Shown: in pieces, positions 23,949-54,413 of the stretch
How the letters are laid out: every line of letters begins with the position of its first letter
Numbering within the stretch: position 1 is the stretch's first letter
Assembly: GCA_016934515.1 (NCBI GenBank)
Contig: JAFGSR010000168.1
Location: forward strand, 34,521 to 98,520
Direction: 5' to 3'
Origin: Sedimentisphaerales bacterium
Lineage (GTDB): Bacteria; Planctomycetota; Phycisphaerae; Sedimentisphaerales; SM23-30
DNA length: 64,000 bases
Program-made: the position numbers and the translations under genes
The notes under the pieces: generated by a model
What the model was told of the DNA's origin: nothing
Databases searched by the model: none
Seen by the model: only the letters and a program-made list of their open reading frames with translations

Positions 23949-24719
23949 TCACTGCACCGGGGCAATCGATAATAATCCAAAGCCAAACGCCTTGCCCGGA
24001 CCAATGCCCCTGACCAATGTTTCGCGAAAAGCATTGGGATTAATAATTTCAAGTATGCCCTCGTATCGAGCGGATCGGAGCCGCTGTCCCTTTCCTGCCT
24101 CATTTGTTTTGTTCATATACACATATCCCGGCTGGATAATCATATCATCACCGAGAGTAAACCCACACTTTTCACCCTTATGAACCAGCCATTCAAAAAG
24201 CTCTTCATTTGGCACCGAAACGCGTTTTCCATGCCGTCCTTTCTTGGACGTCCGTTCCTCGCTTGTAAGTGACTGTTTTTCTTGCTTACTGATAGTATCG
24301 ATCTTTTTTGTTGGATTCGCCATCAATCGAAAACGGAATCTCTGGCCATTCTCGATCGATGGAGTATATTTTTTCACTTTGTATGGAGCCGCCAGAAGGA
24401 AACCGGCATTATGAAAGGCATAATCCCAATCCGGTTCAATAGCCGACAAGACAAGTATCACCACATTTCCAGCCGGTTGCGGATCAATACGAAACAGAAA
24501 ACCGTTTTCCGTTCCACGCTTGACATGAACCTGCCCTTCGCCGAAATTCGTGGGATTGTAGGGCTTGAGAAAATGTTCATCGTTCCGGACACGTTCTTTC
24601 GACGGAAACGCCATGCACAACCGCTGATGCACACGGTATAAATTCCGCAGCCACAATCGTCCCGGTCGTGGACGATCGGGATTGCTCCCCGTATCGATGA
24701 GCAATGTCGAGATAAACAT
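23949..24719 (-). CDS. cas6e: crRNA endoribonuclease Cas6e (CasE)
   Basis: 256 residues. N-terminal MFISTLLIDTG, then YRVHQRLCMAFPS with H31 in the place of the catalytic His of CasE. C-terminal G-rich loop GIGPGKAFGFGLL. It cuts the repeat hairpin and stays bound to the crRNA 3' handle in Cascade. Start overlaps the cas5 stop (TAATG at 24717-24721). About 93 nt separate it from cas1. Confidence 0.93.
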   Translation of the reverse strand: MFISTLLIDTGSNPDRPRPGRLWLRNLYRVHQRLCMAFPSKERVRNDEHFLKPYNPTNFGEGQVHVKRGTENGFLFRIDPQPAGNVVILVLSAIEPDWDYAFHNAGFLLAAPYKVKKYTPSIENGQRFRFRLMANPTKKIDTISKQEKQSLTSEERTSKKGRHGKRVSVPNEELFEWLVHKGEKCGFTLGDDMIIQPGYVYMNKTNEAGKGQRLRSARYEGILEIINPNAFRETLVRGIGPGKAFGFGLLSIAPVQ

Positions 24720-25819
24720 TATTCCACCTCCTCTGCCGAGAGTCTGCGCCGCCTTGTCTGTATTGAACGGAACATGATTATTTCTCTCCGCTTCTTAATG
24801 ATCTCGTCGCGCCATTGCGGCTCTTCGGGGTTGATGCGGTCCATGCCCATACCAAGACCATATTCGAGCATGGTGACGGCGTCATGGCAGAGTCGGCAAA
24901 GAGATCGCAAGTCGTCATGGGTTTCATCCCCACCCGCCCGTCGATATGTGATATGTTGCACAGTGGTCGCCGGAGATTTACATAAAACGCATAAGTGATG
25001 GTCGTGGTCAAGCCGTTCAGATCGAGCTTGACGATAGGCGGAGTTGACATAGTTTGCCCTGGGCCGTGAGGGTGCTGGCGTATGGTGCTGAATCGGTTGC
25101 GACTCCAGAGCCACATCGCCATCCCTACCCACGTGCAGTGAACCGCCAATAACGAAGCGAGCTTCATGCGCCGGCGGGTCAAAACTCACAGGAACATCAT
25201 ACCAGATTTCCGCATCCGCAGGGGCTTCGGTCTGTGAGGCCGACGGTCGCCAGTCACAAAGGTAATCAAGCGTTTGCGGAGCGGCGTCCTGCCTGCAACG
25301 TTTGCGCCAAGGGACCGCTTTCAGAGCAGTGAGTACATCAGGATAATCACCGCCTTTGGACTCCAAAAGAGGACGCGACGGCGGACAAGATTTGCGGCCC
25401 AGATAGAGCGGCCAGCATGGCGCTGCCAAAGCATCTGAAAGTTTGCCAATCAAGAAAGGCTCGCCCTGTAGAACTACCAGAAAGGAGGCGTCGCAAAGAT
25501 ACTCCCGACGTGTGAGCATAGCGCCGGATTTAGATTCTCCCTTGGCTGTGCGCATCTGCATTTTGGCTCCAACCGTGTGATAATCCCACCATCTAATACC
25601 AGCCCGGTCGATACGCACACCCATCGTCAAGGCGGCCAGTCTCGGCAACCATTCGACGGAGGCTTCGGCACGAGTGATACCTAACGCTGCACAGAGTATC
25701 CCGATAACCGCCGACTTGGTCGGGGCGGGTCCGGTTCGCCGCACGACGAATTTACTTTGGTGATCGCCCCAGGCCTGCATCGGACCTTCGAGGCGAAGAT
25801 AAATTGTATTTATAGTCAT
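24719..25819 (-). CDS. cas5: Cas5e fused to a C-terminal HNH nuclease domain
   Basis: 366 residues from ATG 25819, coupled to the cas7 stop by TGATG; usual Cas5e is ~230-250. Residues 1-245 are Cas5e: YLRLEGPMQAWGDHQSKFVV and APTKSAVIGILCAALG are signature segments. Residues 245-366 are extra. They hold C277-x2-C280, H289 in TVQHITY, D303 (HNH 'N' position, DDLRSL), C308-x2-C311 and H312: a complete zinc-stabilised HNH (beta-beta-alpha metal) site. Cas5e holds the crRNA 5' handle in Cascade, close to Cse1 and the entry of target DNA. Here the HNH would cut DNA at the R-loop in place of Cas3, which is missing. The tail (335-366) is basic. Confidence 0.93.
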   Translation of the reverse strand: MTINTIYLRLEGPMQAWGDHQSKFVVRRTGPAPTKSAVIGILCAALGITRAEASVEWLPRLAALTMGVRIDRAGIRWWDYHTVGAKMQMRTAKGESKSGAMLTRREYLCDASFLVVLQGEPFLIGKLSDALAAPCWPLYLGRKSCPPSRPLLESKGGDYPDVLTALKAVPWRKRCRQDAAPQTLDYLCDWRPSASQTEAPADAEIWYDVPVSFDPPAHEARFVIGGSLHVGRDGDVALESQPIQHHTPAPSRPRANYVNSAYRQARSERLDHDHHLCVLCKSPATTVQHITYRRAGGDETHDDLRSLCRLCHDAVTMLEYGLGMGMDRINPEEPQWRDEIIKKRREIIMFRSIQTRRRRLSAEEVE

Positions 25820-27006
25820 CAGCAAACCTCCGGATTGACAATTTCTTTCTGTACTTCGCTCCAGTCAAAGCCAATCGTTCTGATGACGGCGGGAATCAAC
25901 TCGTCCAGCGATTTGATCTTTTCTCCTTCGAGTAAAATTTCACTTTTATTTTCCACAACCTGCAAAGCATGTCGATTATTAGGTGAGAACCAGAAACGCT
26001 GTTGTGGCTTTCCATAGCCGATTTCCATATCGTAAACATATTGGCTCAGTTGGGCGACACTCTGCTTGATAAGATCGCGTTCACCATGTTCGACCGGATT
26101 AGCAAAGGCGTTGGCGTAGCTAACGGGATTACCTTTCTTCTTGATTTCTATCAAGATACCATCAGGATGGTTATGAGCGGCATGGCTGTTCTGTTTGCCT
26201 GAAGGATTAGTCTTGGCAGCACCATACAAGAAAGCACCGACGGTGTGGGCGGCTAGTTGTTCATTACCGTCTAGGTTTCTAAGAAGTTGTTCCCAGTGAA
26301 TGGCGAAATACTTGTAGAAGCATGCCGAGGCGTAGAGGGCCTCGCCGATATGGGCACCGCCTGCGTCTTCACCAGGAACATCATCGGCGGCAACGAAATA
26401 ATCCACTTCCGGTCGCGCTTCATGGGTACTGATAGCATGAGCAACCTGCGCCGCAGCTTCGACGGTTAAATTCAATCCTTTCCAGACGCCTTTGCCGTTA
26501 TCTCCGCCCTTAGGTTCGAGCATCCGGCCAAAAAGAGCCATGTCAGGAATATAAACATGCTCGGCGATCTGATGGGCAAACTGAGTGGCGGTTTCCTTGT
26601 CGGACTTATTCTCTTTAAATAGTTGCTTCATTTTATCAATCGCCTTATTGCTGACATACACGATCCCGGCGCTCTTGTCATCATCGGCGGCGATGTCCGC
26701 TTCGGCCTTCGCTTTTCTTTTTTTCGCTTTAGGAGCAATGCCGCAAAGCTCAAGTACTTTCATCGCCCGCTTGAAATCTTCACTGTCGCCGTTTGCACCG
26801 GCAATTACCTGTGCCAGCCGCCGCGTTCGCAATCCGCCAAGCAAAGGTTTGAATTCCTTGCTAATGCGGATGCTACGCTTAATACATTGGCTGGAGATGC
26901 GAGAGCGCAACACGCCTCCGAAATAGCAGGTCTTTGGGGCCCCCAGATCGTCCCGGTTAAGATTGGCCGGGCTGTGATTTTGAACCATGTGCATTTCAAT
27001 TAACAT
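25819..27006 (-). CDS. cas7: Cascade backbone subunit Cas7e (CasC/Cse4)
   Basis: 395 residues. The N-terminus LIEMHMVQNHSPANLNRDDL followed by GAPKTCYFGGVLRSRISSQCIKR (split for length) is the hallmark of Cas7e. Six copies form the crRNA-binding backbone. The thumb/insertion region around 100-140 is K/D-rich. The stop and the cas5 start overlap, and the start overlaps the cse2 stop by 1 nt, so the operon is tightly coupled. Confidence 0.95.
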   Translation of the reverse strand: MLIEMHMVQNHSPANLNRDDLGAPKTCYFGGVLRSRISSQCIKRSIRISKEFKPLLGGLRTRRLAQVIAGANGDSEDFKRAMKVLELCGIAPKAKKRKAKAEADIAADDDKSAGIVYVSNKAIDKMKQLFKENKSDKETATQFAHQIAEHVYIPDMALFGRMLEPKGGDNGKGVWKGLNLTVEAAAQVAHAISTHEARPEVDYFVAADDVPGEDAGGAHIGEALYASACFYKYFAIHWEQLLRNLDGNEQLAAHTVGAFLYGAAKTNPSGKQNSHAAHNHPDGILIEIKKKGNPVSYANAFANPVEHGERDLIKQSVAQLSQYVYDMEIGYGKPQQRFWFSPNNRHALQVVENKSEILLEGEKIKSLDELIPAVIRTIGFDWSEVQKEIVNPEVC

Positions 27007-27500
27007 CAGAGTCTCCTTTCAAGGTATTGTAAATATTGTTCGGCCCATTGACGCCGTTTGTTTGGACGTCGCCAGATGGAAATATCATCAGTCAATCTTA
27101 CCCAGTCGAGCTTGAGTTCACTGGATGCAATAGTATCCAGAGCCCATTGCAGCACCGGTTCGATGCGGTCAAATGGCAGCATAAGCAATTCGTCGAATTT
27201 ACGTCGGCGGCGATTCGCTTCCCTGTTATCCTTCACTCGACAGCGGGCGAGTTGCCCCGCCAACAGTGCCCCGGCATCATGCTCAATGGGACAATAAGCG
27301 TAAAGTTTGGCGATCAGCCAGGCTGCTCCACGCCAGGGCGTTTTGGGATCTTTCTGTCTCAGCGGCCACCATAGGCCCGCAAAGAGATCGAAGGCATCCA
27401 CCGACTCATCCAGACTTCGACCTGAATGGCTGCGCAGCAAACTCAGATCGCCGTTTTGTAAACTACTCAAGACTTGGATATATCTCTCGGTTGCGATCAT
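27006..27500 (-). CDS. cse2: Cascade small subunit Cse2 (Cas11e)
   Basis: 164 residues, all-helical, basic. LWWPLRQKDPKTPWRGAAWL and LLMLPFDRIEPVLQWAL are typical of Cse2, the belly subunit that holds the non-target strand. Length is normal. The start overlaps the cse1 stop by 4 nt (ATGA). Confidence 0.9.
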   Translation of the reverse strand: MIATERYIQVLSSLQNGDLSLLRSHSGRSLDESVDAFDLFAGLWWPLRQKDPKTPWRGAAWLIAKLYAYCPIEHDAGALLAGQLARCRVKDNREANRRRRKFDELLMLPFDRIEPVLQWALDTIASSELKLDWVRLTDDISIWRRPNKRRQWAEQYLQYLERRL

Positions 27501-28924
27501 GCATCGGCTCCTTTCTTGCGACCAGCGCGGTCCGTTGCGATTATTTTGGGTTTCATATTGGGCTTGACGGCAGCAATCTCACGACGCCTCTGTACTTCAA
27601 CGGTTGTATAGCCGGGTGCGAGCGATTGTGCGACAACGGACATCATGGGGCTATAATCCCCGGCAACCTGCTCCCATGCCTCCGGCTCACCAGTCAATAA
27701 TGCGTGTATCTTGTCAAAAACCTGCGTCTCGATATGAGGTCTAACTGAATCAATCATTGGACGAATCTCTGCATGTTTGCGTGATGATTTCTTAGGTTTA
27801 CAACGGCTTATAAGCTTGCTGTTTTCTTTGCTCCAATAATCAATCTTCTCAATAGCCTTTTGAGGATTGAAAGAATCCGTATTCACATTAAAAGATACTT
27901 CGCATTTTTTTGCTTCGATGTATTTATCATTTTGGACAGTAGCAAAACTAACAGCAATAAACCTATGAGGACTAATCGCATTCTTTTGTATAAGTGCTCC
28001 TATCACTAACTTAGTCCATCGCCCAGAAGCTGCATCATAAGCTTTTAATGAATCGTTTGGCTTTAGAACGTTTTTGTTGTCATAAATAACATGTGGATCG
28101 TCCCAGTTCCTTCTCTCATCAACAGACTCTGCTTTTGTACTGCCGATGCCAGCAAATACCGATTGCTTTATGAGTTTTGCTTTGACTCCACAGGCAATGC
28201 AGTTTTCCTCGTCTGTTTTGGGAGTATCCAGCCATACTCTCCTAGGCAGCCATGTAAGCCCAGTCAGCAATGCCACCTTCCCTTTTGCTGGAAGCTGAAT
28301 ATCAGGTTTTACCCAGGCAGGTTCCCCAAAATCATTTTGTTTTTGATCTTGCCATGAAAGCAACAATGACTCAAAAAGGCAAGAACCCAAAGGAATAATA
28401 TAGATTGGTGGTTTTGAATTGATGCCCGGTGGTTTACCCCTCCCGCCAGATGTAGCAAATGATGGTAAGCGTAATAAACCTTTAGCGCAACAAGCAGGAC
28501 ACAAACCATTATCTTTATCCTTAGAATGGCAAAAATGATACCAATTTGAACCTGTAGGTATTTCCTGCATCAGATAATTAGCGGTAAGCTTATCAGGTTC
28601 CCCGGTTTTAGCTTGATATTGATAGAACCGCTTTCCATCGCCGAACAGGTTAAAACAATCACGGTTCTCATCGAGTTTGGTGAACCAATCATCTGGAAAC
28701 GACTTCTCGGCGTAGGCGGATACATAGTCAGGTGGATTACCCTTGCACCAATACAATAGCGCCAGTAGAAATCGGAAAATCGCCACACGGTCCATCGGAT
28801 TACTGGCCGCGATTTGGCGAATCCTGTGGGCATCAGTCAATGCTTGAAAAATTCCAACTCGGTCATATTTGCCATTACGATAAAGAACCGGTATCCATTT
28901 CTCATCTAGTAAATTATAGTTCAT
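27497..28924 (-). CDS. cse1: Cascade large subunit Cse1 (Cas8e, CasA)
   Basis: 475 residues. MNYNLLDEKWIPVLYRNGKY is the classic Cse1 start. A zinc-knuckle segment CHSKDKDNGLCPACCAKGLL precedes TSGGRGKPPG, also typical. Cse1 reads the PAM and, in ordinary I-E systems, recruits Cas3. With no Cas3 here, its Cas3-docking surface may have been lost or reused for the HNH domain of Cas5. Its start lies inside the last codons of the small ORF 28914-29057. Confidence 0.95.
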   Translation of the reverse strand: MNYNLLDEKWIPVLYRNGKYDRVGIFQALTDAHRIRQIAASNPMDRVAIFRFLLALLYWCKGNPPDYVSAYAEKSFPDDWFTKLDENRDCFNLFGDGKRFYQYQAKTGEPDKLTANYLMQEIPTGSNWYHFCHSKDKDNGLCPACCAKGLLRLPSFATSGGRGKPPGINSKPPIYIIPLGSCLFESLLLSWQDQKQNDFGEPAWVKPDIQLPAKGKVALLTGLTWLPRRVWLDTPKTDEENCIACGVKAKLIKQSVFAGIGSTKAESVDERRNWDDPHVIYDNKNVLKPNDSLKAYDAASGRWTKLVIGALIQKNAISPHRFIAVSFATVQNDKYIEAKKCEVSFNVNTDSFNPQKAIEKIDYWSKENSKLISRCKPKKSSRKHAEIRPMIDSVRPHIETQVFDKIHALLTGEPEAWEQVAGDYSPMMSVVAQSLAPGYTTVEVQRRREIAAVKPNMKPKIIATDRAGRKKGADA

Positions 28925-29324: not shown

Positions 29325-29726
29325 GGGTCGTCTTGCCATTATTGGGCAGGTGCGGGTGCGAAGAGTTCGGGCGGGTGGGAGGGGATTGGAGACAGAAAAC
29401 AGTTGATTTTATGAATTTAGCCACCTAACAAGCACATCGTATTCGCTATAACCTATTATGTTGTAGGGAGATACAAAAACGTACCATAATTCTATTCTTT
29501 GAATCATATAAATTTGTGAATTTTCACTTTTTTTTAATCAACAATTTGGCTTTTGAAACGCCTATTAAAAATTAGCACCTGTGGTCTGTTTTTAAACTGA
29601 AGAAGGGACAGATAAAACTCAATAAAACCGACAATATTATCCTTGCATTACCGTTTAATGTCTGTTAAAATAAACAATAATCACTTTTTCACGGACGAAA
29701 ACAACACTTTTTGCAGGAGAAAAACC
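29325..29726. other. Intergenic, no gene supported
   Basis: A/T-rich spacer between the CRISPR locus and the PEP-CTERM gene. A proline-rich frame on the - strand (29125-29424) crosses the flanking repeat and lacks a ribosome site; I do not accept it. The promoter of the PEP-CTERM gene must lie here but is not clear. Confidence 0.5.
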
Positions 29727-30335
29727 ATGTTCCACAAAGCAAAACTTTTTACCATAGCTTTAACCGGATTTGTGGTATTTTTTGCAAATTGTACCAAAGC
29801 CGATGTACTAACTTTTGATGATATAGGAACCACACCAATTGATGCTGAACCTATCCCAGATGGATATGGAGGATTCGATTGGTATACTATTTTGTATCTC
29901 GACCCATCCATTGTAACCGTAGATTCAGGTTATGCTAATGGCATAGTATCGGGAGATTATGTGGCACTTGTAAGTAATTATTCTCATGAAGGTATAGGAT
30001 GGCTTACCGGTAACCCATTCACATTCAATGGCGCTTACTTTACATCGGTTTGGCGAGACGACCTTAATATCCAGGTTGACGGTTATCTCGATAACAGCCT
30101 CATCTACACGACTACTGTAACAATTGACACGATCGATCCAGTGTGGTTCCAGTTCGAATATGAAAATATCGATGAACTAAAATTTTCTGCTTCCGGTGGT
30201 ACAGTTCACGATGGCTATATATGGGACAATACCCAGTTTGTGATTGATAACTTCTCATACATCCCGGAACCATCAACAATTTTACTGTTTACTTTCGGGG
30301 GGCTTCTGTTGAAAAGAATCCACAAGCAACTTTAA
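29727..30335 (+). CDS. Secreted PEP-CTERM protein
   Basis: 202 residues from ATG 29727, with GCAGGAG upstream; an in-frame start at 29643 has no site. Signal peptide at 1-26 (LFTIALTGFVVFFANCTKA). The body is a jelly-roll-like beta domain with D/Y/T-rich strands. The end is a PEP-CTERM sorting signal: IPEPSTILLFTFGGLLLKRI (180 on), i.e. PEP, hydrophobic helix, basic tail. Such proteins are cut by an exosortase and released to the surface or matrix. No exosortase is in the window. Confidence 0.85.
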   Translation: MFHKAKLFTIALTGFVVFFANCTKADVLTFDDIGTTPIDAEPIPDGYGGFDWYTILYLDPSIVTVDSGYANGIVSGDYVALVSNYSHEGIGWLTGNPFTFNGAYFTSVWRDDLNIQVDGYLDNSLIYTTTVTIDTIDPVWFQFEYENIDELKFSASGGTVHDGYIWDNTQFVIDNFSYIPEPSTILLFTFGGLLLKRIHKQL

Positions 30336-41473: not shown

Positions 41474-44400
41474 TTAATTTTGTTCCCCAATATCGGTGCC
41501 TGAGCCAATGTAGCGTAAAAGCAAATCAATTTCATTTTCAAAACCAATTTGTCTCATAAATAATTCATAACCTTGCTGTTCGGCAAAGAGCCGATAGCTG
41601 TTGCGCGCCTTGAATTCCTGTTCCTCCAGGGTCATATCATAATTATATCCCATCAAGTTAGCCGGCTCGGCGGTGTTGATTTCTGTGGCATGTTCCAACC
41701 CCAGAATATGGCCTAATTCGTGGGCACCCGTATTGGCCAAAGCGTTAACCGTTTCCAGGAAACGTTCGGTGGGATCCTCCGACATCTCCGATAGATATCC
41801 GAAAGCGATTTCATCGGTTAATACGATTGCCATATCGGTGTGGTCTTCATTGTGACGATCCAGCTTTTGTGCCAAACCATAAAGGCCCAGCATAGGTGTG
41901 GTTCCACCAAAAATCACTGTCGAATATACCGCACCGGCCTGGGGTTTTTCGGTAACAAATTCAATCTCGTCTTCAGTTAAACCGACATTGCGATAGATTT
42001 CTTCGATACGATCGGCAATCGCCTGAATCAATGATTCACGCATCCCGTCAAGTTCAAACGCTTCAGCGTCAAAAGCCGGGCGGTTAACAACATTTGGTCC
42101 CCAGCCCATATCAGCTTCTTTAAACAAATAATCTGCTCGTGCCCCGTCGAAAGCCAACCAAACAAGTTGCGACGGCGGAGTTTCCACGGCTTCCGGTTCG
42201 GTGGTTTCGATGGTCAACTGATAGGCGATAACTTCAGAGAAGTTTTGCAGAGAATATCCTGTTACTACCACGTAATAGGTGCCCATACCATTCTCGGCGG
42301 GATCGATTACTACCGACTCATGGTTGGGCATGCTGAAAATCGCCTGAGCTTCGTAAAGCGTGTCGGCATTTTGGGCGGCACCGGTAGCCAGGACATCGTC
42401 GGCCTCATCCATAATAGTAGTTAATGCTTCATAGTCACCGTTGTAAATAGCAACATATAACTCAACATCATCTCGACCGAACAGGACTTCGGAATCCAGA
42501 TCTACGGTTACTCGCTGACCTTCTTCCAGCCGGAAACTGTAAACATCCACGTCGAGAAGATTACCCAGACAGGAACTGATTACCACGCTGCCCGCCTGCC
42601 CCGGCTCCAGCAGGGTGCCGGTAACTTTTTCTACCGGAAGATAACATTCGGCACTAACAGGATTATTTAACAAATCCACATTGTAACGATAAACTTGTGG
42701 ATTATCTTCGTCCTGAACCAACTCGTCATTACCCCAATCCAGTGGTTCCAGATTTACAGGTCCATTGGTCGGATAGACCTGGCTGTAAGGTAAGCCGCTG
42801 GCAGTGGTGTCCGAACCAAAATCACTGTTACCATCGTTGAAGACCAGGACCTCAAGGTTGTATCTGCCCAACGGGGAATCGACTCCGCCTGCCAGGAAGT
42901 CAACTTCACCTACCCAGAAATATCCCGGATCAAGCGAATTGCGGAAAAGATTGCTGCTTACATTCAATAAATAATCACCGTCTTCAGGAACCTCAAACAG
43001 TGCATTTAGTTCTCCGGTGCCTGTCCAACTGGTTACCAGAGACAATGTTCGCTGGCTGTTTGCCAGGACCATAAGGTCGCTGGTGGTACCAAAGTAGATC
43101 GTCATACTGTCCGTCGAACCGCCACCCGGTACCGAGTGATTGGTGTGGATCAATATAGAAATATCATCGTCACCAAAAGTTTCAATGGATCCGTTGAGAG
43201 AATCGCTAATCTGCACCGAATCTACCAGAGCACTTGCATCACCCACCCAGTTGATGTCGTCAATTTCAAGCAGGATATCACCCTGGCCTGTAGTATAGGT
43301 AACATTAAACTGATAGAATCCGCCTTCCGGTGTTACATCGCTATTGCCAATCGTACTGGAAACGGTAAGGCCTCCCAGATTGGTGGATGAACTGCCAAAG
43401 GTGTGGTTGGTGGATGCCTGGCCATTTATGCTGACCTGAACGACATCGTCAACCGGGCTGCCCGAAGTGGAGCGTACCAGAAAACCCGGCGTATTAAAGG
43501 CAGCCATGTCAAAGCTGATATCGCTGTATTCCCCGCCAGCCGGCAGGGGCATTACCAATTCCATTCGGCTGCCATATTCGGTGTTTCTGATATCAGTGAA
43601 GATTTCCACTATGTTATTTGAAACGTTTTCAATTCCGTAAAGACTGCCGTCGGGAGCAAAATCAATCCCGATTATTTCTATATTGGTACCTGGATTGGCC
43701 AGGTTATCCATCTCGTCACCCACCGCAGCGGCTTTGCCAAATTCCGGATTAATTTTCAATTGATTATTAATCTGGGGTACTTTCTTTCGGGTATCAATCT
43801 TAACTAGTGTCTGAGTAACCTGATCAATGCCATACATGCAACCGTTATTTATGCTGCTACCGGGTATGTCACCGTATGCCAGGGATACAATATCCGTAAA
43901 ACCATAAAATTCCAGATCCTGTTCCGATAATTGCAGGTCTGCATACGGATCTATTATATTAGAAATAGACAACAGGGAATCGCGCGTGGTCGAATTGCCC
44001 GTTACCGGCACGATAGTTATGGATACGACTGCGAACAATTCATCAATCCCCAGATTTTCATCAGTAGATCCAAACTCCAGGGCTAGAATATCATCTATTG
44101 TCAGAGTGGCAGTTGTACCTGTACCGTACACCGATGCGTTGACGAGGTCGCTTAAAACCGTCCTGGTTAAAACCACATCGTCATCGGTTTCCGTCGTCGG
44201 GTCCAGCGGATTGGGATCGACAAAAATCGGCCGGGTATCAAAAGAAAATGTGCTTATCAGGGCAAAGGTCTCCAGGCTCGAATCGTAGCCTAAGGCATCG
44301 TAATTGATGGTGACCAGGGCGTCATTAAAATCATTCAGCAAATCAAATTCACCGGCCTGGATCAATCCAATTCTAGTGTCAAGAATAATCTCACCGGTCA

Positions 44401-47400
44401 GAACTTCATTTTTTAAATCATCCAGCAATTCCGCAGTCAACACCTGGGCAAGTGCTGATTCAAGCTCATCGGTTAGTTCCAGGAAATAATCTGTTTCCAA
44501 AATCGTTTTGCTGATGGTTATTTCGTCCAGTCCCGGCAATATCATGTCACGTGTCGGAGTTAAATCCGTGCGGGAAGATTCACCCAGCATCTCTCCTGCC
44601 AATATCAACTCCGCCGGATATTGAGTCTCAATCTGGCTGGTGCCGGCGAAAAACACTCGAACGTCGCCGTCGCCGTGTTCCGCGTCTATTTCAACCCGTA
44701 AGACACTGCTGCCATCGACTCCGAATCCAAAAATTACGGTCGTGTTATCCGGATCATCGGTAACCGCCGAAATAATGAAACCATTTTCGGTATCATTGAG
44801 CCAGTCAATGTCTTCTATGAGTACCTCAACATCGCCATGGGCTTCCCCGTGGGCATATTCAATGTCAAAACCGTAATAGTAACCTTTATCGATAAATTCC
44901 TGTAACCCGGCGTTTAGCGCTACTACCGAGGAATCAGAGATTACCCGGTTGCCTCCCGAAAAATCAGTGGTTTCCTCAGCGAAAATATGTTCGACCGGTC
45001 CTTGATTGCCAAAGGTAATGTTCATCGTATCGCCGGCGGGACTGTTACGCAAAGGCAAACCAACGAAAATTCCACTGTTGGGCTCCGTTGCTAAACCGTG
45101 CCTTTCCGCGTCAAATTCAAACTCCTGCAACAGGACCGCCGCACCGGTGGCCGGGTCGATCGTGTATAAAGCGTCACGAAGCAGGTTGCCGGTTTCGTTC
45201 ACCGGTTGATTATGTAGTGCGATTAGCCCGTCACCGCCCTGATTCAGCGCCAGACCGGTAATTACCAGATTGTCCGCCAAACTGGAATCCACACTACCCA
45301 GGTTCCCCAATCCGGAGCCCACCGCTGTTGCCAGGCCAAAGCCGGCACTGTTCGGATCAGAATTAAACCTTACCAGCGTATTAGTAGCAGCATCGATTCC
45401 ATACAAAACTCCATCCAACTCTGCCAGTCCGCTAATGTTGGTAAAAGTGCTTCCGATATTATTGCTCGAAATCGTTACGCTGGCCCGATTGTCCGGATCG
45501 AGGTTGTTGATATCCTCGCTGACCTTGTTGATCAAAACCAGGCTCTGACGTGCCGAACCTGAATTTGGCTGAAAATCGGCAATCGCCCAAAGCGAATCCA
45601 AACTGTGACCGGCCAATCCCTTCAGGTCCAGTATGGCACCCTGGCTGGCTACCAGACTGTTCAGATCATTAAGGTCATTTTCTAGCAGCTCTAAATTGCT
45701 GAACACTAACGGATTTATATTATAGAACTTGTGCCCGATTCCATCATAACCGTAATAACTTGTTCCGGTATATGCCAGTTCATCCAACTCCGGAGCCACC
45801 AGGTCAGCAGACACCGTTATGTCCGGATCATCTTCCACCATATCTTCGACGCCATCTGTGCCAATAACATTAAAAGTCTGACCGGCAACCGAATCATCAT
45901 GAATCTGCCACAGTTGTACCAAATAGATGCTGGAATTTTCCGTATAGCCACCAGAGCCGCCCCCGCTGCCCACTGCCTGGGATATATTTACGTCCACAGT
46001 CTGACCCGCTACCAGATCATTCATCCGAATAAAATCGTCTTCATCCAATGCCGAATCACCGGTAAATCCAGGATTATCACCCATTTGGCTGGTGTAGGAC
46101 CAGATCATGTTTTCCGGAAATTCCTCAAAGGGTGAAAACGCCGTTACTATCGAATTGCCCAGATCAGCTACCGCAAAGTAATAAACAAAATCACCACCGG
46201 GAATGCCATTGCCGCTGGGCACGTTACCTTCGCCATCCAACGAAACTCCCTGTTGATTGGTGATCTGATTGGCGACCAGAGTTATCTGGTAATAATTTGT
46301 GCCCCAGCGATTGATGGCGAAACCGTCCTCGTTGTGAAATGTTGCTGAGTTGGATCCTTGGTCGAAGGTTACCCAGGCAGTTGGATCCGTCAAAGGATTA
46401 TCGTCCCCGCCGATGATAATATCGTCGGACACTCCGGAACTCGGGTTAAGTCCGAAAATCTGGTCCAGTCCAATAGAACGAATCTGAAAAGCCTGACTTA
46501 ATGCGTTCGCTGCCGTTATATCGGAAACTTCCAACGTTGCCCCGTCAACGTCCTTGCTGTTTACTTCCAGAAGACTCACATTACCCTGACCTACAAAAGC
46601 CTCCCGGCCGACGCTTACTTTGCCCACCATGCCGGCCGCTCCGATCACGAAGCTATCTTGCGAGAATATCGATCCGCTGACATCGCCACGAATATCCACT
46701 TCGCGAATTACCCCGATTACGTCAGTTTGTTCATGGGAAAACTCCACCGTAATAGCGTTTAAATCCGTCGCGTCGAAAAATACATTCGAAACCTGCGGCG
46801 GATTCAAAAATTCAATGTTCTTTTGCTCCAGCAGATCATCCCCGGTGCCAAACATCTCGTCCTGTCCCGGTGCCAAAGCCGCAACCACGTTAGATTCAAC
46901 GAAATCACCATTGATTATTACCTTGTCGATAATTCCGCTCAGGGCCCGGTCGCGATCAGGATCATCAGCGGCAGTGCTGTCAAAGTCAAACAACTTTCCG
47001 CTTGGCCCAATATCCAAACCAGCCGCCAGGGTACTGAATTCCATGTTGCCGTTTATCTGGGCTAGTTCCAGATTGCCTCCTGCCGCAACCACGCTCAAAC
47101 GCATGCTGCTGCTTTGGAAGGTGCCAATGTTGCCTCCGGCACGGATACCCATGACCTCACGTAATCCTTCACCGCCGGTCATTCCCTTTACGATTACTCT
47201 GTCGATGTCGCCTTCCGAACTCAGCACACCACCCAGATCGCCCGTTACCTGAGCATAAGACAACAAACTGTCGGAACAGTAAAGCATCCCGTCCATGTCG
47301 CCTCGGAAAAGCGCCTTGGTTACATTCGCCGCGGAGATGTTCACCTGCTCGCTTACCTGCGTACTCTGCAGCAATTTCACATCCCCCAGAATATCAATAT

Positions 47401-50400
47401 TGGTCGGTAGGGCATCGGTGCCGTTCATTTCTCCTAAAATCGCCTTGGTCACATCACCGCCGACAACCACTTCACTGCCCGATGCTACCCCGCGCAGATT
47501 CATAAAACCAACATCACCGTTGATATCCATGTAGGCGTCATTAGTCTGGTTGCCAATCCACCCATCAACAAACACCGTACCCATGGACTCATCGTCGCCA
47601 TTATAAAGCTGACCGACATCAATCGTCGCCCCGCCCGCTGCCATAACCTTCAATTTCGTCTTGCCGGAAGTGTTACGCAACTGGATAGTTTCAATCTGAT
47701 CTGCCCCCGGTAAAACTTCACCTTCTCCAGGCCCACTCAATACTACGGTTACTTTGTTACCGTTAATTATTCCTCGATAAGGCAGACCCTGCTGAATAAT
47801 TATTCCGCCTACCAGGTCCGGAAGCTGTTCTGATATCGTCCACGAATTAAAACCACTTACCATGGAAATCGGCGTAGGAAATCTCATGCCCTCGATTCGC
47901 AGCGACACAATCTGAGCATCGGCGAATACTCCAAAGGGACTGCCCTGTCCGATGATCTGACCGATACTCATCCGCCGGATGGTGCTCAACCCTTCACCCG
48001 GCGTATCGCTGCCGTCCTGATCTCCAAAAATCGTATTCGGGCCCGGACTTACACCGGCGGCAATTACCGAATTATCCAACGTGTCAACCTTGCCCGTCAG
48101 AATATCACCTTCCAGTGCCTCGCCGTTGATTATCAGCGTGCTCCGGTCGATAAGATCATCGTTGTCGTCAAATACCTCACCCGGATCAAAACCTGCCAAC
48201 ACATAAGTGTTCCGCATCAAACCACTCACATCCAGGCTGCGAATATCACCGCCGGCCGTAACCAGCGACTCATCGTCCAGAATATTAGCAGCCTGAATAC
48301 TGCCGATATTGCCCGTAACGTGCACCGTACCGAAAATCGAACCGTCCACAATCAGCTTTTCCAGATCGCCCGTAATATCCAGCACTCCACCGGCTTCGAT
48401 GTTACCCGAAATGTGTAATGTCCCGATATTGCCCGTCGAAATATATCTGCCGCTGCCGGTTATCGATCCGTCGATGTCGATCCCTTCACCGCCGCCGATT
48501 ATAATCGTACCGGAAATGTCCGATCCGCGAATCACAATCTGCGGCCCTGTTCCCGCCACATCAATCGTTACCGGCCCGCCGTCCACCACGTCGGTCAGCG
48601 CAATGTCACCGTTAATAATTGTCAATTTGCCAAAATCTTCACCAACTGTGATGCTGGCGTTCAGATCGGCACGGTCGTCTCCGATTCCCTTGAGCATCAG
48701 CGAACGGAAATCTTCCGTAACCTCAATTTGGCCGTTCACACTGCCCATAACTTTTGCAATGCCAAAATCACCATCGACAGATACCGAACTTTCCAGATCA
48801 CCCGGTGTCCGCCCGCTGCCGATTGTCAGCTTACCCAGATCGCCATGGATGCCAAATTCCGAACCCGGATTACCAAATTCACCACCGCTGATTATCGATC
48901 CGACATCTCCCCCGATATCACCCAACCCGAGCACCTGACCGCCTGCCTTCAAGCTTTTCAACTCGATACCGGCCCGATCATATTTTGCGTGCGGACCCAG
49001 CGGATTGCCCGGTCCCACCGGCGCAGGATCCCAGTTCAACAGCAACTCCGCCTGGAAATCACCACCTGCCGAGATGGTCCCTACCTTGCCGTCCACAATA
49101 ATAATCCCACCTACCGGCGTACCAATATTTCCGCCGGCCTTGATCGCCCGCAAATCACCATAAGGCCCGGTTACCTCAATCGTACTGATTAAATCTCCCC
49201 GGCTTTGAATCATAGCTACCGGCCCGGCAACGAAGATGCCCGAACCCAATATGTCGCCCCGGCTGCTCAGCGTCCCCAACTCACCCGCCTCAAGCACCAG
49301 ATCAAATATGTCCCCCGTAGTAGTAACTCGATCTATCTGGTCGAACGCGTTTATATTCGTCCGGTTAATTTCATCTGCCGTTATCGTACCAATATGTATA
49401 CCGCAGAAAATCTCACTGTCCTCAATAGTGCCACCTCGCTGGATGGTTATTCGGCCGATGTCCCGGTTTGCTGAGATTATTGTATTATGAATACCTGCTC
49501 CACCTACGGTTATTTGTCCTATTATACTTTCTTCGATGGTTAACGGACCGACTATCAATGCATTAATTCGAGTGTCGAATATCCCCTCGGCCCCTCCTAA
49601 TACCTGAATAGTATTGATACTTTGGGCCTTAATAAAGGCCCCTCGTATCTCCGAACCGGCACCCCGTACTTCAATAAAACCTATCGGGTCAACTGTTCCC
49701 GTACTAGAGTTATAAAGCTGGTAATTATCAAACATGGAGGTCGTCGAAATCGTATCGGCTATATAACGCGAACCACGAACTCGCTCACTTGTTCCGCCTG
49801 AAGCGTTATAACCTGTTATTCTTGCTCCGTTGCTCACCTGCACTCGTACAATGCCGCCGCTGCCAAAAAGCGGACCGCCTATATCGTGTCCTGCATCATG
49901 TGCTTCAGCGAAAACGATTACACCTGTAACGAATATACCCGACTGAGCCCATTCGCCTGTGCCCGGATGACGGATACCATCACCCAGACTTATCCGGTTA
50001 AGGTTGCCCTCGATTACCAATGCCCCGTCCATCCCATCAAACTGACCCCCAGCCCGACTGTTGTCACTGTTCAGGGTAATTCTATCTACATCACCGGTTA
50101 TTCTGGTATCTCCCAGTGATCCGCCAATAACTATCCTGTCTATTCCCACCGCCGAAAGCAATCCGGAAACCTGAGATCCTATCGGATTGATAATCGCTCT
50201 AAGAACATCATCTTCTATCGGTGCAATCTCGACCGTTTCAATAATCTGACCCGTCGAGTTCTCCGTCCGTCCCAGATGGCCGTCAATACTTATCAAAGCA
50301 AAAGGCTGACCACCCGGCGGGAATGTCACCACATCTTCATCACCTTGATCGGCTGGAGTCGTCCCTTGATCATCTGGATCTTCCACGAAACCCGTACCTT

Positions 50401-53400
50401 CAGCGATTACAATAGATACAATATCGCCCCCCGGGGTACTGTTGACTATCTGCTCTATTGCTCCGTCAACATTCACCTGCAAAACCGATATCTCATCATT
50501 TCCGGTGATATTAACCCGGTTATTCTGGTCTCCGGTAACGTTCAATACACCCAGTTCCGCCGGCCCGCCTGTCGTCGTGACCCGCAAACCATCCGTTGAA
50601 GTAACCTCCGTTATCACGTATCCCAGAACAGCCTGGTTGTAAAACCCAAAGCTTTGTATATAGTCCGCATAGGACAAATCCCATATCGGCAGCAACTGCA
50701 CCGTGAGCACTCCGCCTTCGTTGGGGGTAGCATTAGGATCAGTAACATCATCCGGCGGAGTCACAAAAAGGAATTCATCAACGTCTTCTTCTCCCGTATA
50801 ACCCGGCGACAATTTCACCAGAACGCCTGAGTCGTCAGTAACCGTTACCGATTGACCCGCCGCGAATTCAAACGGACCGAATGGTCCAAAATATCCTGAC
50901 ATATTTACAACTATGCTGCCTTGAATATCAACAAACCGAACATTACCGCCGCGACCTCCGACACTGACCGGAATGCCAGATCCGAAGCTCCCACTAAATA
51001 CCGACAAACCAAAATCTCCACCTACATAAATCCGGTCAATAACTCCCGGCTCGCCGATCTCGTCGGCGTTCGCGAAAATCCCCGTCGGTTGCCCAGAAAT
51101 AATTGTACCGGAATCGTGATTCATCTCATCGCTGAAACTACCAGCGATTACCACTTCGCCAATATTACCGTTAGATACGATCAACCCGGAAAGACTGCCT
51201 CCCATTTTTACCGAACTGATCTGGCTGCCTGCTTCTATATTTATCGTGCTGTCAACTGGCGAACTCACCTGACCAATATCGCCCGCCGTGAACACTGAAG
51301 GATCGGGTAATGTTACAATTCCATCATCATCATCCCAGTTAAAGCCCACCACCGAGCCATTAAAACCTGCCCGCAAACCTCCCAGGCTCCCATCGTCAAC
51401 GCGAATCTGCACATTACGCATTGCCCCGCCGCTACTGAAAGCCCCCATATTGCCGTTCAGCACCTCGACCGTAGGCCGTGGGTAATTCGCTAGATGACCG
51501 TAACGAACGTCGGTAAGCACATTGCCCCCGCCAAAGGTCGTCTCGCTGACACCCTCAATCTCCAGCCTATACGACATAATCCAATTTGTGTTGCTGCTGC
51601 CAATAATATCAGCTGCTGCTACGACGGTGTATATTCCCGCTTTTTCCGCCGTGTATTCCAATTCCAGCGGCGCACCGGTAACGATATCCACTTCACCAAG
51701 CAAAGCCACCAACTCGCCGTCAGGATCTATCAGAGTCAAATTCGCTTCTGCGGGTACTTTCGTGCCGGGAAGCAACGGATGACCGCTGGCTCCAAACGTT
51801 CCATACGCGTCATACAGATTGATCGTCAGCGTCTGACCGGCAAATACTCCAAAGCTGTAATAATCCTCGGTGTCCCAATCACTACTCTCCGTCTCGCCCA
51901 GCACCGAAATCTTGCCGTCTATCGTCCCCAGATATTGCGCTTCTGCCACAGTATCATTAGTGAGAATCCAGCCCCCGCTGGTGTCCATTGCTCCGGACAT
52001 GAATGATACAGTATCCCCGTTATCGTCAATTTTCCGCTCAAGCTCTCGATAAGCACGAACATATTTTTCGGAAAAAACGTCGTACACACCCGGGAACTGC
52101 GGCGCATCACTTGCACCATGCACCAGTATCGGCAATCCCCAGTCACCCTGACCATATACACTTCCCAGGTTCCCCTGCACATCAAGAACCGGTGAATTGC
52201 CGCTGCCCCCGTATGACGCCGAACCTGCCAGTGTCCAACTGTTATCCGATTCACTAACCCCGCCCGCCTGGGTATGCACTACCAGATTATTCAAGTCGCC
52301 GTCAACCACAAAATCGTTGGTTCCCAAAAATCCGGCGTAAAACAAGTCGATGCTGCCGTTAATTGACACATCACCAAAAACCCCGCCGCCAATCTGGATT
52401 CGGCCAATATCCTGGGGTTTACCCTCAAAGTCAGGTGCTACTATAATGCCCGGACGAATGCCACCACCCGGATATGCTCCTATCGGACCGGGATCAGCCG
52501 CAACCTCAGAATCGTCAAAAAACGTACCTACCGTGCTTAACTGCCCCGGTGACCAGTACTGTGTTTCTTCCAATGTCTGAGGAATGGTACCAATCATTAC
52601 CCCGCCGGCGCCGCTTGGTGTCGATACACTTGCATCATCCTCGTCAATAAACAACAATGCCTCTGTGCCGCCGGTTGGGGTATATACACGATTGCCGTCA
52701 CTGTCTATAGTTAAACTGGTTATCGTAATATATACATCCGGCGTACTAGAAGCTATATACATCAGATAAATGTCTGATAATCCGCCAACTATCACAAACT
52801 GATCATCCACCTCCTGGATAAACTCAGTATTTATTGCATACAATGTCCCACTTGTCGGATCTGTTGCGTAGCCAACATTATTAGTGTCGTCAAAGGACAT
52901 ACCCGTAAGAAAGATCGGAGGCGGATCAGCGCCACCCGTGGGCTGATCACCAAAATCAACAATATCCTGGAAGCGGTCGGCAACTGCTGCATCCAGGTCC
53001 ACGGTTACCAACGTGCCGCCATCCATCGAGCCGGCCTGGTGCAACAATCCAAACAATCGGCCAAACTGATCGTACATCAAACCTTCTACTATGTCGCTGT
53101 CATCCACTGTAGCACGCGGGGCGGTAAATATTCCTATCGAGTTGCCAATGTCTGCCTTGACTACCGATATAGTCAAAAATTGGTTTTCAACGTCACCTGC
53201 TCCGTTAACTCCATTGTCATAGGCCAGGAAAATCGGCTCGCCTATTCCATTCTGACCGGTATGGACAATCGTTAGAATATCGTCACCGGGACCGGATACT
53301 CCACTTAAGCTGTAGTCAGTCTGCCCCTGATTATTTACTCCGATTGCTTCCGCTTCACCCGTAATCGTGTCGATAGAAATTAATACCTCCCCCGTTGTTA

Positions 53401-54085
53401 ATACCTGACCAACTCCATCAAAGGATGTGGGGCCTACTACCACCGCGTATAAGGTCCCGGTTACCGGATCAAATGCCGCCGCATCAAAATCCGTAAAGAT
53501 AACATCATTACCCTTCGCCCCCGCGTTATCCGTATCTACCACTTCGCCTATTAATCTATCTATCACACCTAATGTTCTGTCAACTTCAACCAGAAATCCA
53601 CCCGTGGTGATACCAAATGTGTCACCGTTGGTATTGCTCGCTAATGCGTTTATGGAAGCCCCCAAACCACCTAATACATCCGAGGGCACTTCATCAATTA
53701 TCGATATGCCTCCCGGGCCGCCGCCAATTCTGATCGTCTGGCCGTCAACCACCAAATCCCCGGGAATATCTTCGCCACGGTAATTCAGAAGTTCCACCAC
53801 CACATCTTTGCTGGGGCCCATCCCGGATAACGTACCTATACGTACCTCATTAAACACGGCTACATCGCTGCCCGAATCATTTTCCTCCGGGTCCGCATAG
53901 AGAAAGGTAGTTTCCTGTTGGACATCTGCCGGTAACGTCAGGGTCGTCAACAAAACGCGAGGCTCCAGAAACTCCGCTTCCAGGTTACTGCGTTTAGCTT
54001 TCTGGCTTTTTAGTCCCATTCTTTTGATGATACTCTGGTACAGTTTTTCCCCTTGACGGCCTCTTCTACGTAATAATCGATTCAA
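41474..54085 (-). CDS. Giant secreted LEPR-xLL protein with C-terminal metzincin-type protease site
   Basis: 4203 residues, 12.6 kb. Start is TTG 54085, decided by a perfect AAGGAGG five nt upstream; no ATG fits. Residues 40-46 read LEPRVLL, the planctomycete LEPR-x-LL N-terminal motif on surface proteins. About 60-600 are beta-propeller-like blocks. Residues ~700-2900 are very long beta-helix-like repeats (GDIGQVSSPV, GNIGTVQ-type turns every ~15-25 residues). PPC-like domains occur near 730-850 and 3700-3960. Residues 4122-4132 are HELGHILGLEH with a later NLMGY Met-turn (4145), the zinc site of matrixin/serralysin-type proteases. I infer a surface fibre that carries a protease at its tip. 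Confidence 0.9.
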   Translation of the reverse strand: MNRLLRRRGRQGEKLYQSIIKRMGLKSQKAKRSNLEAEFLEPRVLLTTLTLPADVQQETTFLYADPEENDSGSDVAVFNEVRIGTLSGMGPSKDVVVELLNYRGEDIPGDLVVDGQTIRIGGGPGGISIIDEVPSDVLGGLGASINALASNTNGDTFGITTGGFLVEVDRTLGVIDRLIGEVVDTDNAGAKGNDVIFTDFDAAAFDPVTGTLYAVVVGPTSFDGVGQVLTTGEVLISIDTITGEAEAIGVNNQGQTDYSLSGVSGPGDDILTIVHTGQNGIGEPIFLAYDNGVNGAGDVENQFLTISVVKADIGNSIGIFTAPRATVDDSDIVEGLMYDQFGRLFGLLHQAGSMDGGTLVTVDLDAAVADRFQDIVDFGDQPTGGADPPPIFLTGMSFDDTNNVGYATDPTSGTLYAINTEFIQEVDDQFVIVGGLSDIYLMYIASSTPDVYITITSLTIDSDGNRVYTPTGGTEALLFIDEDDASVSTPSGAGGVMIGTIPQTLEETQYWSPGQLSTVGTFFDDSEVAADPGPIGAYPGGGIRPGIIVAPDFEGKPQDIGRIQIGGGVFGDVSINGSIDLFYAGFLGTNDFVVDGDLNNLVVHTQAGGVSESDNSWTLAGSASYGGSGNSPVLDVQGNLGSVYGQGDWGLPILVHGASDAPQFPGVYDVFSEKYVRAYRELERKIDDNGDTVSFMSGAMDTSGGWILTNDTVAEAQYLGTIDGKISVLGETESSDWDTEDYYSFGVFAGQTLTINLYDAYGTFGASGHPLLPGTKVPAEANLTLIDPDGELVALLGEVDIVTGAPLELEYTAEKAGIYTVVAAADIIGSSNTNWIMSYRLEIEGVSETTFGGGNVLTDVRYGHLANYPRPTVEVLNGNMGAFSSGGAMRNVQIRVDDGSLGGLRAGFNGSVVGFNWDDDDGIVTLPDPSVFTAGDIGQVSSPVDSTINIEAGSQISSVKMGGSLSGLIVSNGNIGEVVIAGSFSDEMNHDSGTIISGQPTGIFANADEIGEPGVIDRIYVGGDFGLSVFSGSFGSGIPVSVGGRGGNVRFVDIQGSIVVNMSGYFGPFGPFEFAAGQSVTVTDDSGVLVKLSPGYTGEEDVDEFLFVTPPDDVTDPNATPNEGGVLTVQLLPIWDLSYADYIQSFGFYNQAVLGYVITEVTSTDGLRVTTTGGPAELGVLNVTGDQNNRVNITGNDEISVLQVNVDGAIEQIVNSTPGGDIVSIVIAEGTGFVEDPDDQGTTPADQGDEDVVTFPPGGQPFALISIDGHLGRTENSTGQIIETVEIAPIEDDVLRAIINPIGSQVSGLLSAVGIDRIVIGGSLGDTRITGDVDRITLNSDNSRAGGQFDGMDGALVIEGNLNRISLGDGIRHPGTGEWAQSGIFVTGVIVFAEAHDAGHDIGGPLFGSGGIVRVQVSNGARITGYNASGGTSERVRGSRYIADTISTTSMFDNYQLYNSSTGTVDPIGFIEVRGAGSEIRGAFIKAQSINTIQVLGGAEGIFDTRINALIVGPLTIEESIIGQITVGGAGIHNTIISANRDIGRITIQRGGTIEDSEIFCGIHIGTITADEINRTNINAFDQIDRVTTTGDIFDLVLEAGELGTLSSRGDILGSGIFVAGPVAMIQSRGDLISTIEVTGPYGDLRAIKAGGNIGTPVGGIIIVDGKVGTISAGGDFQAELLLNWDPAPVGPGNPLGPHAKYDRAGIELKSLKAGGQVLGLGDIGGDVGSIISGGEFGNPGSEFGIHGDLGKLTIGSGRTPGDLESSVSVDGDFGIAKVMGSVNGQIEVTEDFRSLMLKGIGDDRADLNASITVGEDFGKLTIINGDIALTDVVDGGPVTIDVAGTGPQIVIRGSDISGTIIIGGGEGIDIDGSITGSGRYISTGNIGTLHISGNIEAGGVLDITGDLEKLIVDGSIFGTVHVTGNIGSIQAANILDDESLVTAGGDIRSLDVSGLMRNTYVLAGFDPGEVFDDNDDLIDRSTLIINGEALEGDILTGKVDTLDNSVIAAGVSPGPNTIFGDQDGSDTPGEGLSTIRRMSIGQIIGQGSPFGVFADAQIVSLRIEGMRFPTPISMVSGFNSWTISEQLPDLVGGIIIQQGLPYRGIINGNKVTVVLSGPGEGEVLPGADQIETIQLRNTSGKTKLKVMAAGGATIDVGQLYNGDDESMGTVFVDGWIGNQTNDAYMDINGDVGFMNLRGVASGSEVVVGGDVTKAILGEMNGTDALPTNIDILGDVKLLQSTQVSEQVNISAANVTKALFRGDMDGMLYCSDSLLSYAQVTGDLGGVLSSEGDIDRVIVKGMTGGEGLREVMGIRAGGNIGTFQSSSMRLSVVAAGGNLELAQINGNMEFSTLAAGLDIGPSGKLFDFDSTAADDPDRDRALSGIIDKVIINGDFVESNVVAALAPGQDEMFGTGDDLLEQKNIEFLNPPQVSNVFFDATDLNAITVEFSHEQTDVIGVIREVDIRGDVSGSIFSQDSFVIGAAGMVGKVSVGREAFVGQGNVSLLEVNSKDVDGATLEVSDITAANALSQAFQIRSIGLDQIFGLNPSSGVSDDIIIGGDDNPLTDPTAWVTFDQGSNSATFHNEDGFAINRWGTNYYQITLVANQITNQQGVSLDGEGNVPSGNGIPGGDFVYYFAVADLGNSIVTAFSPFEEFPENMIWSYTSQMGDNPGFTGDSALDEDDFIRMNDLVAGQTVDVNISQAVGSGGGSGGYTENSSIYLVQLWQIHDDSVAGQTFNVIGTDGVEDMVEDDPDITVSADLVAPELDELAYTGTSYYGYDGIGHKFYNINPLVFSNLELLENDLNDLNSLVASQGAILDLKGLAGHSLDSLWAIADFQPNSGSARQSLVLINKVSEDINNLDPDNRASVTISSNNIGSTFTNISGLAELDGVLYGIDAATNTLVRFNSDPNSAGFGLATAVGSGLGNLGSVDSSLADNLVITGLALNQGGDGLIALHNQPVNETGNLLRDALYTIDPATGAAVLLQEFEFDAERHGLATEPNSGIFVGLPLRNSPAGDTMNITFGNQGPVEHIFAEETTDFSGGNRVISDSSVVALNAGLQEFIDKGYYYGFDIEYAHGEAHGDVEVLIEDIDWLNDTENGFIISAVTDDPDNTTVIFGFGVDGSSVLRVEIDAEHGDGDVRVFFAGTSQIETQYPAELILAGEMLGESSRTDLTPTRDMILPGLDEITISKTILETDYFLELTDELESALAQVLTAELLDDLKNEVLTGEIILDTRIGLIQAGEFDLLNDFNDALVTINYDALGYDSSLETFALISTFSFDTRPIFVDPNPLDPTTETDDDVVLTRTVLSDLVNASVYGTGTTATLTIDDILALEFGSTDENLGIDELFAVVSITIVPVTGNSTTRDSLLSISNIIDPYADLQLSEQDLEFYGFTDIVSLAYGDIPGSSINNGCMYGIDQVTQTLVKIDTRKKVPQINNQLKINPEFGKAAAVGDEMDNLANPGTNIEIIGIDFAPDGSLYGIENVSNNIVEIFTDIRNTEYGSRMELVMPLPAGGEYSDISFDMAAFNTPGFLVRSTSGSPVDDVVQVSINGQASTNHTFGSSSTNLGGLTVSSTIGNSDVTPEGGFYQFNVTYTTGQGDILLEIDDINWVGDASALVDSVQISDSLNGSIETFGDDDISILIHTNHSVPGGGSTDSMTIYFGTTSDLMVLANSQRTLSLVTSWTGTGELNALFEVPEDGDYLLNVSSNLFRNSLDPGYFWVGEVDFLAGGVDSPLGRYNLEVLVFNDGNSDFGSDTTASGLPYSQVYPTNGPVNLEPLDWGNDELVQDEDNPQVYRYNVDLLNNPVSAECYLPVEKVTGTLLEPGQAGSVVISSCLGNLLDVDVYSFRLEEGQRVTVDLDSEVLFGRDDVELYVAIYNGDYEALTTIMDEADDVLATGAAQNADTLYEAQAIFSMPNHESVVIDPAENGMGTYYVVVTGYSLQNFSEVIAYQLTIETTEPEAVETPPSQLVWLAFDGARADYLFKEADMGWGPNVVNRPAFDAEAFELDGMRESLIQAIADRIEEIYRNVGLTEDEIEFVTEKPQAGAVYSTVIFGGTTPMLGLYGLAQKLDRHNEDHTDMAIVLTDEIAFGYLSEMSEDPTERFLETVNALANTGAHELGHILGLEHATEINTAEPANLMGYNYDMTLEEQEFKARNSYRLFAEQQGYELFMRQIGFENEIDLLLRYIGSGTDIGEQN

Positions 54086-54413
54086 GGTGACCTCCTTACA
54101 GGTAAGGTTGGTGTTACGTAGGCTCTTTTATGGTAAGTAATTACAAAAACCCATTTCGGCAAACCACACTTGCCCCTCTCTACGCGGGTTCACCTGCATC
54201 CTTGGCTTTCGGGTCTTGCCCGCCAACGATGCCGGGATAACGGTGGATAATTTTTGCACCGTCCCCTTTATACCATTTACAAATGAGTATTACATACAAC
54301 TCATCTGCTAAATTTATACCTGACAACCCTTTACAATAGGACACGCCAGGAATCATCATGCCCATCTAGTATAAATTTTAGGCATTTTCCGGGGTTTTAC
54401 CCCATTTGTCAAT
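54086..54413 (-). promoter_or_regulatory. Long leader and probable promoter of the giant gene
   Basis: Going upstream from the start: a ~275-nt leader, TATACT at 54368-54373, the perfect dyad GGGGTAAAACCCC (54391-54403), then TTGACA (54408-54413). TTGACA and TATACT are too far apart to be one promoter, so the true -10 may be another A/T hexamer. A 61-codon frame in the leader (54180-54365) has no clear ribosome site. The leader folds in places (CCCGGCATCG..GGCGGG) but I could not match it to a riboswitch class. Confidence 0.3.

Follow-up and report, generated by a model that had tools for sequence, protein, structure and literature searches.

What does a protein of more than four thousand residues do with a protease-type domain at its very end? 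The question is raised by a minus-strand ORF of the window, the whole 64,000-nucleotide stretch of DNA analysed here, which comes from an uncultured Sedimentisphaerales planctomycete. From the letters alone, it had been described as a 4203-residue, TTG-started surface protein that begins with LEPRVLL at residues 40–46, continues as thousands of residues of beta-helix-like repeats and ends in a matrixin-type protease site, with predation, prey adhesion or matrix turnover as its conceivable business. The features of the gene, its product and the two genes downstream are collected in Table 1.

Table 1. Features of the giant-protein gene and its downstream neighbours, in window coordinates.
Feature	Residues	Position	Strand	Basis or remark
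Giant-protein ORF, complete, TTG start	4203 aa	41474..54085	-	ORF and orthologues
Shine-Dalgarno AAGGAGG		54091..54097	-	~5 nt upstream of TTG start
LEPRVLL, in basic N-terminal segment ending LEPRVLLTTL	40-46	53948..53968	-	Motif read in translation
Beta-solenoid segment	1290-2110	47756..50218	-	AF2
PPC domain	3845-3943	42257..42553	-	PF04151
Metzincin-type domain and C-terminal tail	3973-4203	41477..42169	-	Alignments, AF2, profiles
Zinc-binding motif HELGHILGLEH	4122-4132	41690..41722	-	Sequence motif
Met-turn NLM	4143-4145	41651..41659	-	Sequence motif
Conserved C-terminal tail IGFENEIDLLLRYIGSGT	4180-4197	41495..41548	-	f1 tip alignment
First gene downstream	346 aa	40356..41396	-	Hydrophobic N-terminus, repeat-like C-terminus
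Second gene downstream, HEAT-repeat protein	733 aa	38031..40232	-	PF13646

The reading frame of the giant (54085 to 41474) contains no internal stop, as compared to 83–332 stops in the other five frames, and a strong Shine-Dalgarno sequence precedes its TTG codon, which bears out the size and start first assigned to it. Orthologues were sought in 161 genomes of the same order using residues 3976–4203, the tip, as the query. Tip relatives were found in 25 of them, including all 13 genomes of f1, the GTDB family of the source genome (f10, f12, f16 and similar labels denote other families of the class). Besides the source genome, 11 f1 genomes carry an orthologous tip, and one (G139) yielded a shorter paralogue only. 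Six orthologues (4116–4317 aa) are full-length or almost full-length, and five are fragments. The six long ones are 39–56% identical to the 4203-aa protein across about 3900–4100 aa; conservation extends from end to end, and the tip belongs to the best-kept parts. Where the start of an orthologue was examined, it is TTG or GTG, and an AAGGAG-type Shine-Dalgarno sequence lies close by. Differences from the nearest long orthologue at codon positions 1, 2 and 3 are 0.35, 0.27 and 0.65, a pattern indicating protein-level selection on the gene. These results demonstrate that the giant ORF is a real conserved gene.

Several f1 contigs share, completely or partially, the gene order corrinoid protein, giant, membrane protein of ~340 aa, HEAT protein, fmt and rsmB. 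In most f1 loci, the giant is followed by a relative of the 346-aa gene, and the HEAT-repeat gene is again second after the giant in several. The 346-aa protein had no Pfam match and is a possible partner of the giant. Elsewhere in the window, a prophage-like block (1282–21520, plus strand) with terminase-, portal-, protease/capsid- and tape-measure-like ORFs adjoins a Cas-gene-like run (22950–28924, minus strand) that reads by eye as Cas1, Cas6, Cas5, Cas7, Cse2 and Cse1, type I-E-like. The Cas5-like ORF (24719–25825, minus strand) has a C-terminal HNH-nuclease-like stretch, HHLCVLCKSPATTVQHITYRRAGGDETHDDLRSLCRLCHD, and is a candidate Cas5-HNH fusion. A PEP-CTERM-like sorting signal, YIPEPSTILLFTFGGLLLKR, was seen on a small secreted-type protein (29643–30335, plus strand), whose gene is followed by that of a 1134-aa parallel-beta-helix-like protein.

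The giant is acidic (D+E 14.6%, K+R 4.3%), contains five cysteines and shows no membrane-spanning stretch by hydropathy. Pfam scans recognised nothing beyond the PPC domain and a Matrixin match under the threshold. LEPRVLL is present in the translation at the place first reported, and a LExRxLL-TT(L/I/V) start is common to the giants of the class. LEPR-XLL is a curated NCBIfam domain (NF012209); the giant's N-terminus did not match this model at E≤10, the motif being visible by eye, and class relatives that did match scored 11.9–15.6 bits, just under the 17-bit cut-off. By its sequence, the LEPRVLL segment is probably an export or sorting tag.

Type II secretion genes were noticed soon downstream of the giant at two loci: a GspF and pseudopilin/GspK-like run in f1 (L144, 1072–5809, G140) and GspE-GspF in f16 (L099, 12244–15213, G285). 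Such proximity may be due to chance because several T2SSF-type genes are present in each f1 genome and there are only two cases. It gives a weak hint that type II secretion could be the export route. In most genomes, neither a prodomain nor a dedicated secretion gene was found linked to the giant gene.

The body of the protein was assessed by structure prediction and by comparison across the class. AF2 folded residues 1290–2110 (821 residues) into an all-beta solenoid with a mean pLDDT of 82.5. Its nearest PDB folds, weakly matched, were beta-helical adhesins (EtpA and Ag43; best, EtpA, E 5e-3), and a solenoid profile had no match among PDB sequences. Solenoid-type homologous blocks extend over residues ~1200–2550, the remainder consisting of other domain types including PPC, and amino-acid autocorrelation gave only weak signals of repeat length, near 19–21 residues, in parts. 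The thousands of residues of beta-helix in the sequence-only reading were therefore overstated; what is modelled is one long all-beta solenoid, and the body is only partly beta-helical. When segment-wise profiles of f1 giants were compared to giants of other class families, residues ~1200–2850 were found in the same order, and most of the N-terminal third and residues 2850–3800 did not recur. The long acidic body would be a stalk or fibre, a reading modelled for residues 1290–2110 only.

Two domains were recognised at the C-terminal tip. PF04151 scored 31 bits on the tail scanned alone, above its cut-off of 25.9, and 24.7 in the whole-protein scan. The domain that follows holds HELGHILGLEH and, in ANLMGY, a Met-turn with M4145, both as previously noted. 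The H, E, H, G and H of the zinc motif and the N and M of the Met-turn are invariant in 11 of 11 aligned f1 tips, as is, entirely or nearly, much of the tail GFxNEIDxLLRxIGSGT in the same 11. Counterparts of this tail read FPIGxxDTxDLLLRWLG in other giants and FPIGYQN..LL...G in free-standing proteases.

In the AF2 model of residues 3815–4203, confidence was highest in the metzincin core (pLDDT about 90), and the topology S1-hA-S2-S3-S4-S5-hB(HExxH)-Met-turn-hC is the metzincin order. However, a Foldseek search of the PDB with the two-domain model of PPC and metzincin gave no metzincin among the best 50 matches, which were mostly beta-sandwiches together with spurious two-domain alignments to BcsB. 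The metzincin fold expected around residues 4040–4180 is thus supported by strand and helix order and by a high-confidence HExxH helix, but not independently confirmed. A 20-member profile of the domain could be aligned with structures of human MMPs, the alignment (E 8e-6) being confined to the active-site helix and the Met-turn, and 19 of the 20 members matched PF00413 at E≤0.01. The giant's own domain reached 20.6 bits against a PF00413 gathering score of 24, its tip passed no cut-off in an NCBIfam scan, and the cysteine-switch prodomain motif PRCGxPD is absent from the 4203-aa protein. Strict matrixin membership was rejected on the sub-threshold Pfam score and the lack of a cysteine switch; what survives of the matrixin-type protease is a metzincin-type domain at the extreme C-terminus of an acidic, signal-tagged, surface-type giant. 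From sequence comparison, the tip fits none of the curated protease families and is best regarded as a metzincin family not yet catalogued.

The domain profile had matches in 158 of the 347 class genomes searched. Nine loci that were examined encode free-standing proteins of 357–478 aa, most with a lipobox-like N-terminus, and two of these nine carry the protease in tandem copies. In the tandem pairs L063 and L072, the upstream member ends in a short cysteine-containing tail, RCGxCxHxDD. By its sequence, the giant's tip is homologous to these stand-alone secreted proteases.

Giants with an intact C-terminal metzincin were identified in f12, f16, f20, f22, f25 and f26. They begin with LExRx(L/M)L-TT(L/I/V) wherever the N-terminus is present, those of f12 and f26 being cut off by the contig. 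Taken together, giants with LExRxLL and metzincin span 2.9k to ~19.8k aa in at least six families beyond f1. The f22 open frames alone measure 6,793, 7,175, 12,459, 17,845 and 19,806 codons, each with HELGHxLGxxH 80–96 residues before the stop. The two longest of these (L160/L161 of G282, 19,806; L162/L163 of G333, 17,845) begin LEPRVLLTTL and have the intact motif 96 residues from the end. One giant of 6316 aa (L076, G213) shows a second HELGHALGLGH near residue 1152 beside the terminal one.

The head is not catalytic throughout the class. One f17 giant keeps HExxH with Asn as the third ligand. The f10 giants, mostly 3,000–3,700 aa, still end in the domain (best profile E 1.9e-13), and this tip is present in 42 of 81 genomes and 37 genera. 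HExxH is missing from all 42 f10 tips, and in 35 of them RRxxE takes its place. A tree of 49 tips, built from a short alignment of 158 columns and for that reason less certain at its deeper nodes, recovered f10 as monophyletic (0.996) with the catalytic f25 tips as its sister group (0.958), which indicates that the loss of the zinc site is secondary. That the head is retained in all 42 tips despite the missing zinc ligands suggests that catalysis is dispensable somewhere.

The giants of genus g114 (family f16) end in Peptidase_C39_2 instead, with both tips that were scanned above the Pfam cut-off; a third tip, L100, is C39-like as read from its sequence. No metzincin was found in the three g114 giants (L094, L099 and L100). 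None was seen in the f16 giants of G265 and G309 either, whose ends may be incomplete or frameshifted. The sequence-only reading had missed this class-wide architecture and the whole lineages in which the protease site is lost or replaced. The pattern is probably that of a conserved stalk whose protein-engaging head can be exchanged; catalysis is probable in the f1 giant but not universal. We tentatively suggest, as a view somewhat short of likely, that the Phycisphaerae-type class shares a single orthologous type of giant surface protein, between about 3,000 and about 20,000 residues long, made of a dedicated LExRxLLTTL tag, a collinear solenoid stalk and, at the far end, a replaceable head that engages proteins (a protease in most families, a pseudo-protease with the new RRxxE signature throughout one, an unrelated C39-like domain in another), possibly exported by type II secretion.

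For the f1 giant itself, the likely reading is a tagged extracellular stalk with a C-terminal zinc endopeptidase head that most likely cuts proteins near the cell, engagement of protein being the core job. Export or sorting would be directed by the basic N-terminal segment, which closes with LExRxLLTTL. The acidic, beta-rich body, modelled as a beta-solenoid in part, would form the stalk or fibre and presumably be displayed at the surface. PPC, metzincin and the short tail would together make up the endopeptidase head, for which homology is established and proteolysis of a protein substrate is predicted. The proteins cleaved in f1 would most likely be extracellular and near the cell, such as surface coat, matrix or protein food. 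Engaging a protein target at the end of the stalk would be the head's core task, to which most lineages would have added cleavage. The zinc-site loss in f10, the C39-like swap in g114 and the constant C-terminal position of the head all point to such engagement. Strict catalytic conservation in f1 and the persistence of a zinc-less head in f10 also fit a protein-engaging head that cleaves in most lineages.

The position of the metzincin at the extreme C-terminus would also suit a maturation protease, one that cuts the giant itself or neighbouring giants at export or assembly and may then be released. The same module is known as free-standing secreted proteases, and secreted peptidases commonly lose their PPC domains. 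The C39-like peptidase domain of g114 could equally be a processing protease. However, f10 conserves the domain entire even though it appears inactive there, which pure self-processing would not need, and we regard maturation as an unlikely main role.

The f10 giants bear on a second alternative, in which the head is a structural cap or ligand-binding end of the stalk and zinc binding in f1 is secondary. A pseudo-metzincin persists there in 37 genera, with RRxxE in 35 of 42 tips, on giants of ordinary length, and these tips nest beside the catalytic f25 tips (support 0.96). Pseudopeptidases elsewhere have roles in binding and assembly, and they typically act in binding (PMC11266112). The f1 tips tell against a cap: they preserve every catalytic residue, whereas identity with the 4203-aa protein over the tail as a whole is down to 37–70%, as expected under selection on catalysis. 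A mainly structural or binding role in f1 is quite improbable.

Predation would make the giant a contact-dependent weapon, the stalk delivering a C-terminal protease toxin. The layout of a beta-helical body with an exchangeable C-terminal enzyme does recall polymorphic toxins (PMC3482391), and the tip swap in g114 speaks for this reading too. In polymorphic toxins, however, the C-terminal toxin varies between close relatives (PMC3482391), whereas the tip of the giants has been passed down vertically through many genera within f1 and f10. Neither a small immunity-type gene nor a delivery or pre-toxin domain was recognised. Since the tip is inherited vertically and does not vary between close relatives, turnover of coat or matrix, or digestion of protein near the cell, is a more plausible role than that of a weapon, which we consider very improbable; no direct evidence was found for the predation or prey adhesion first envisaged. 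Finally, the notion that a chance HExxH lies in a spurious long ORF, for which the TTG start and sub-threshold Pfam score might speak, is refuted by the full-length orthologues, codon-position pattern, Shine-Dalgarno sequence and conserved catalytic motif.

An extracellular stalk with a protein-engaging, usually cleaving head, as favoured here, resembles several known systems in part. CdiA/Rhs-type polymorphic toxins likewise combine a long repetitive stalk with a replaceable C-terminal enzyme; the giants differ in a tip that is constant over tens of genera, in the absence of a recognised immunity gene and in their N-terminal tag. Planctomycetes are described, in the accessible part of a survey, as rich in giant genes, and giant genes in general as encoding mostly surface proteins or PKS/NRPS (PMC5177795). 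Giant size is shared with these, and that part of the survey holds no description of the tip architecture or its variation. A literature search, with subscription papers mostly outside its coverage, found no account of either. Most planctomycete giant genes are without known function; here, one architecture can be traced from 2.9k to ~19.8k residues with an interpretable domain at a fixed place. Family f10, with its tip in 42 genomes and 37 genera, amounts to a natural zinc-site mutation and would allow catalytic and dead heads to be compared in cultivable relatives.

With the established metzincins (matrixins M10A, reprolysin-like M12, archaemetzincins M54 and fragilysin) the tip shares HExxHxxGxxH, the Met-turn and the strand and helix order, but it falls below curated cut-offs and has no cysteine switch. 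It has, in common with its class relatives, a LDFDGA-type strand, a YSTV(Y/F)IGG strand, a DxxNxD segment and the LLxRxIGSGT tail. Free-standing PPC-metzincin-type proteases of the class (L061, L062 and L065) have the metzincin, tail and intact zinc site of the giant, but at 360–480 aa, mostly with a lipobox-like N-terminus and without a stalk. The f1 genomes also carry a 1270-aa LEPR-type paralogue (L042–L045) with a LEPR-like start and a metzincin of the same family; it differs in that the metzincin is N-proximal, with HExxH at residue 254–265 in the variant HEA(G/A)H. In another family of the order, LEPR proteins of 2.8–4.9 kaa likewise have an N-proximal metzincin. LEPR-XLL planctomycete proteins (NF012209) have a similar basic N-terminus with LExRxLL near residue 20–60 and are very long and of secreted type. 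The giants read LL-TT(L) at this point, whereas two matches to the model (L047 and L048) read LL-SG or ML-SG. Comparing catalytic and dead heads would also offer a way to learn what is exported by the LEPR-type N-terminal tag, so far unexplained.
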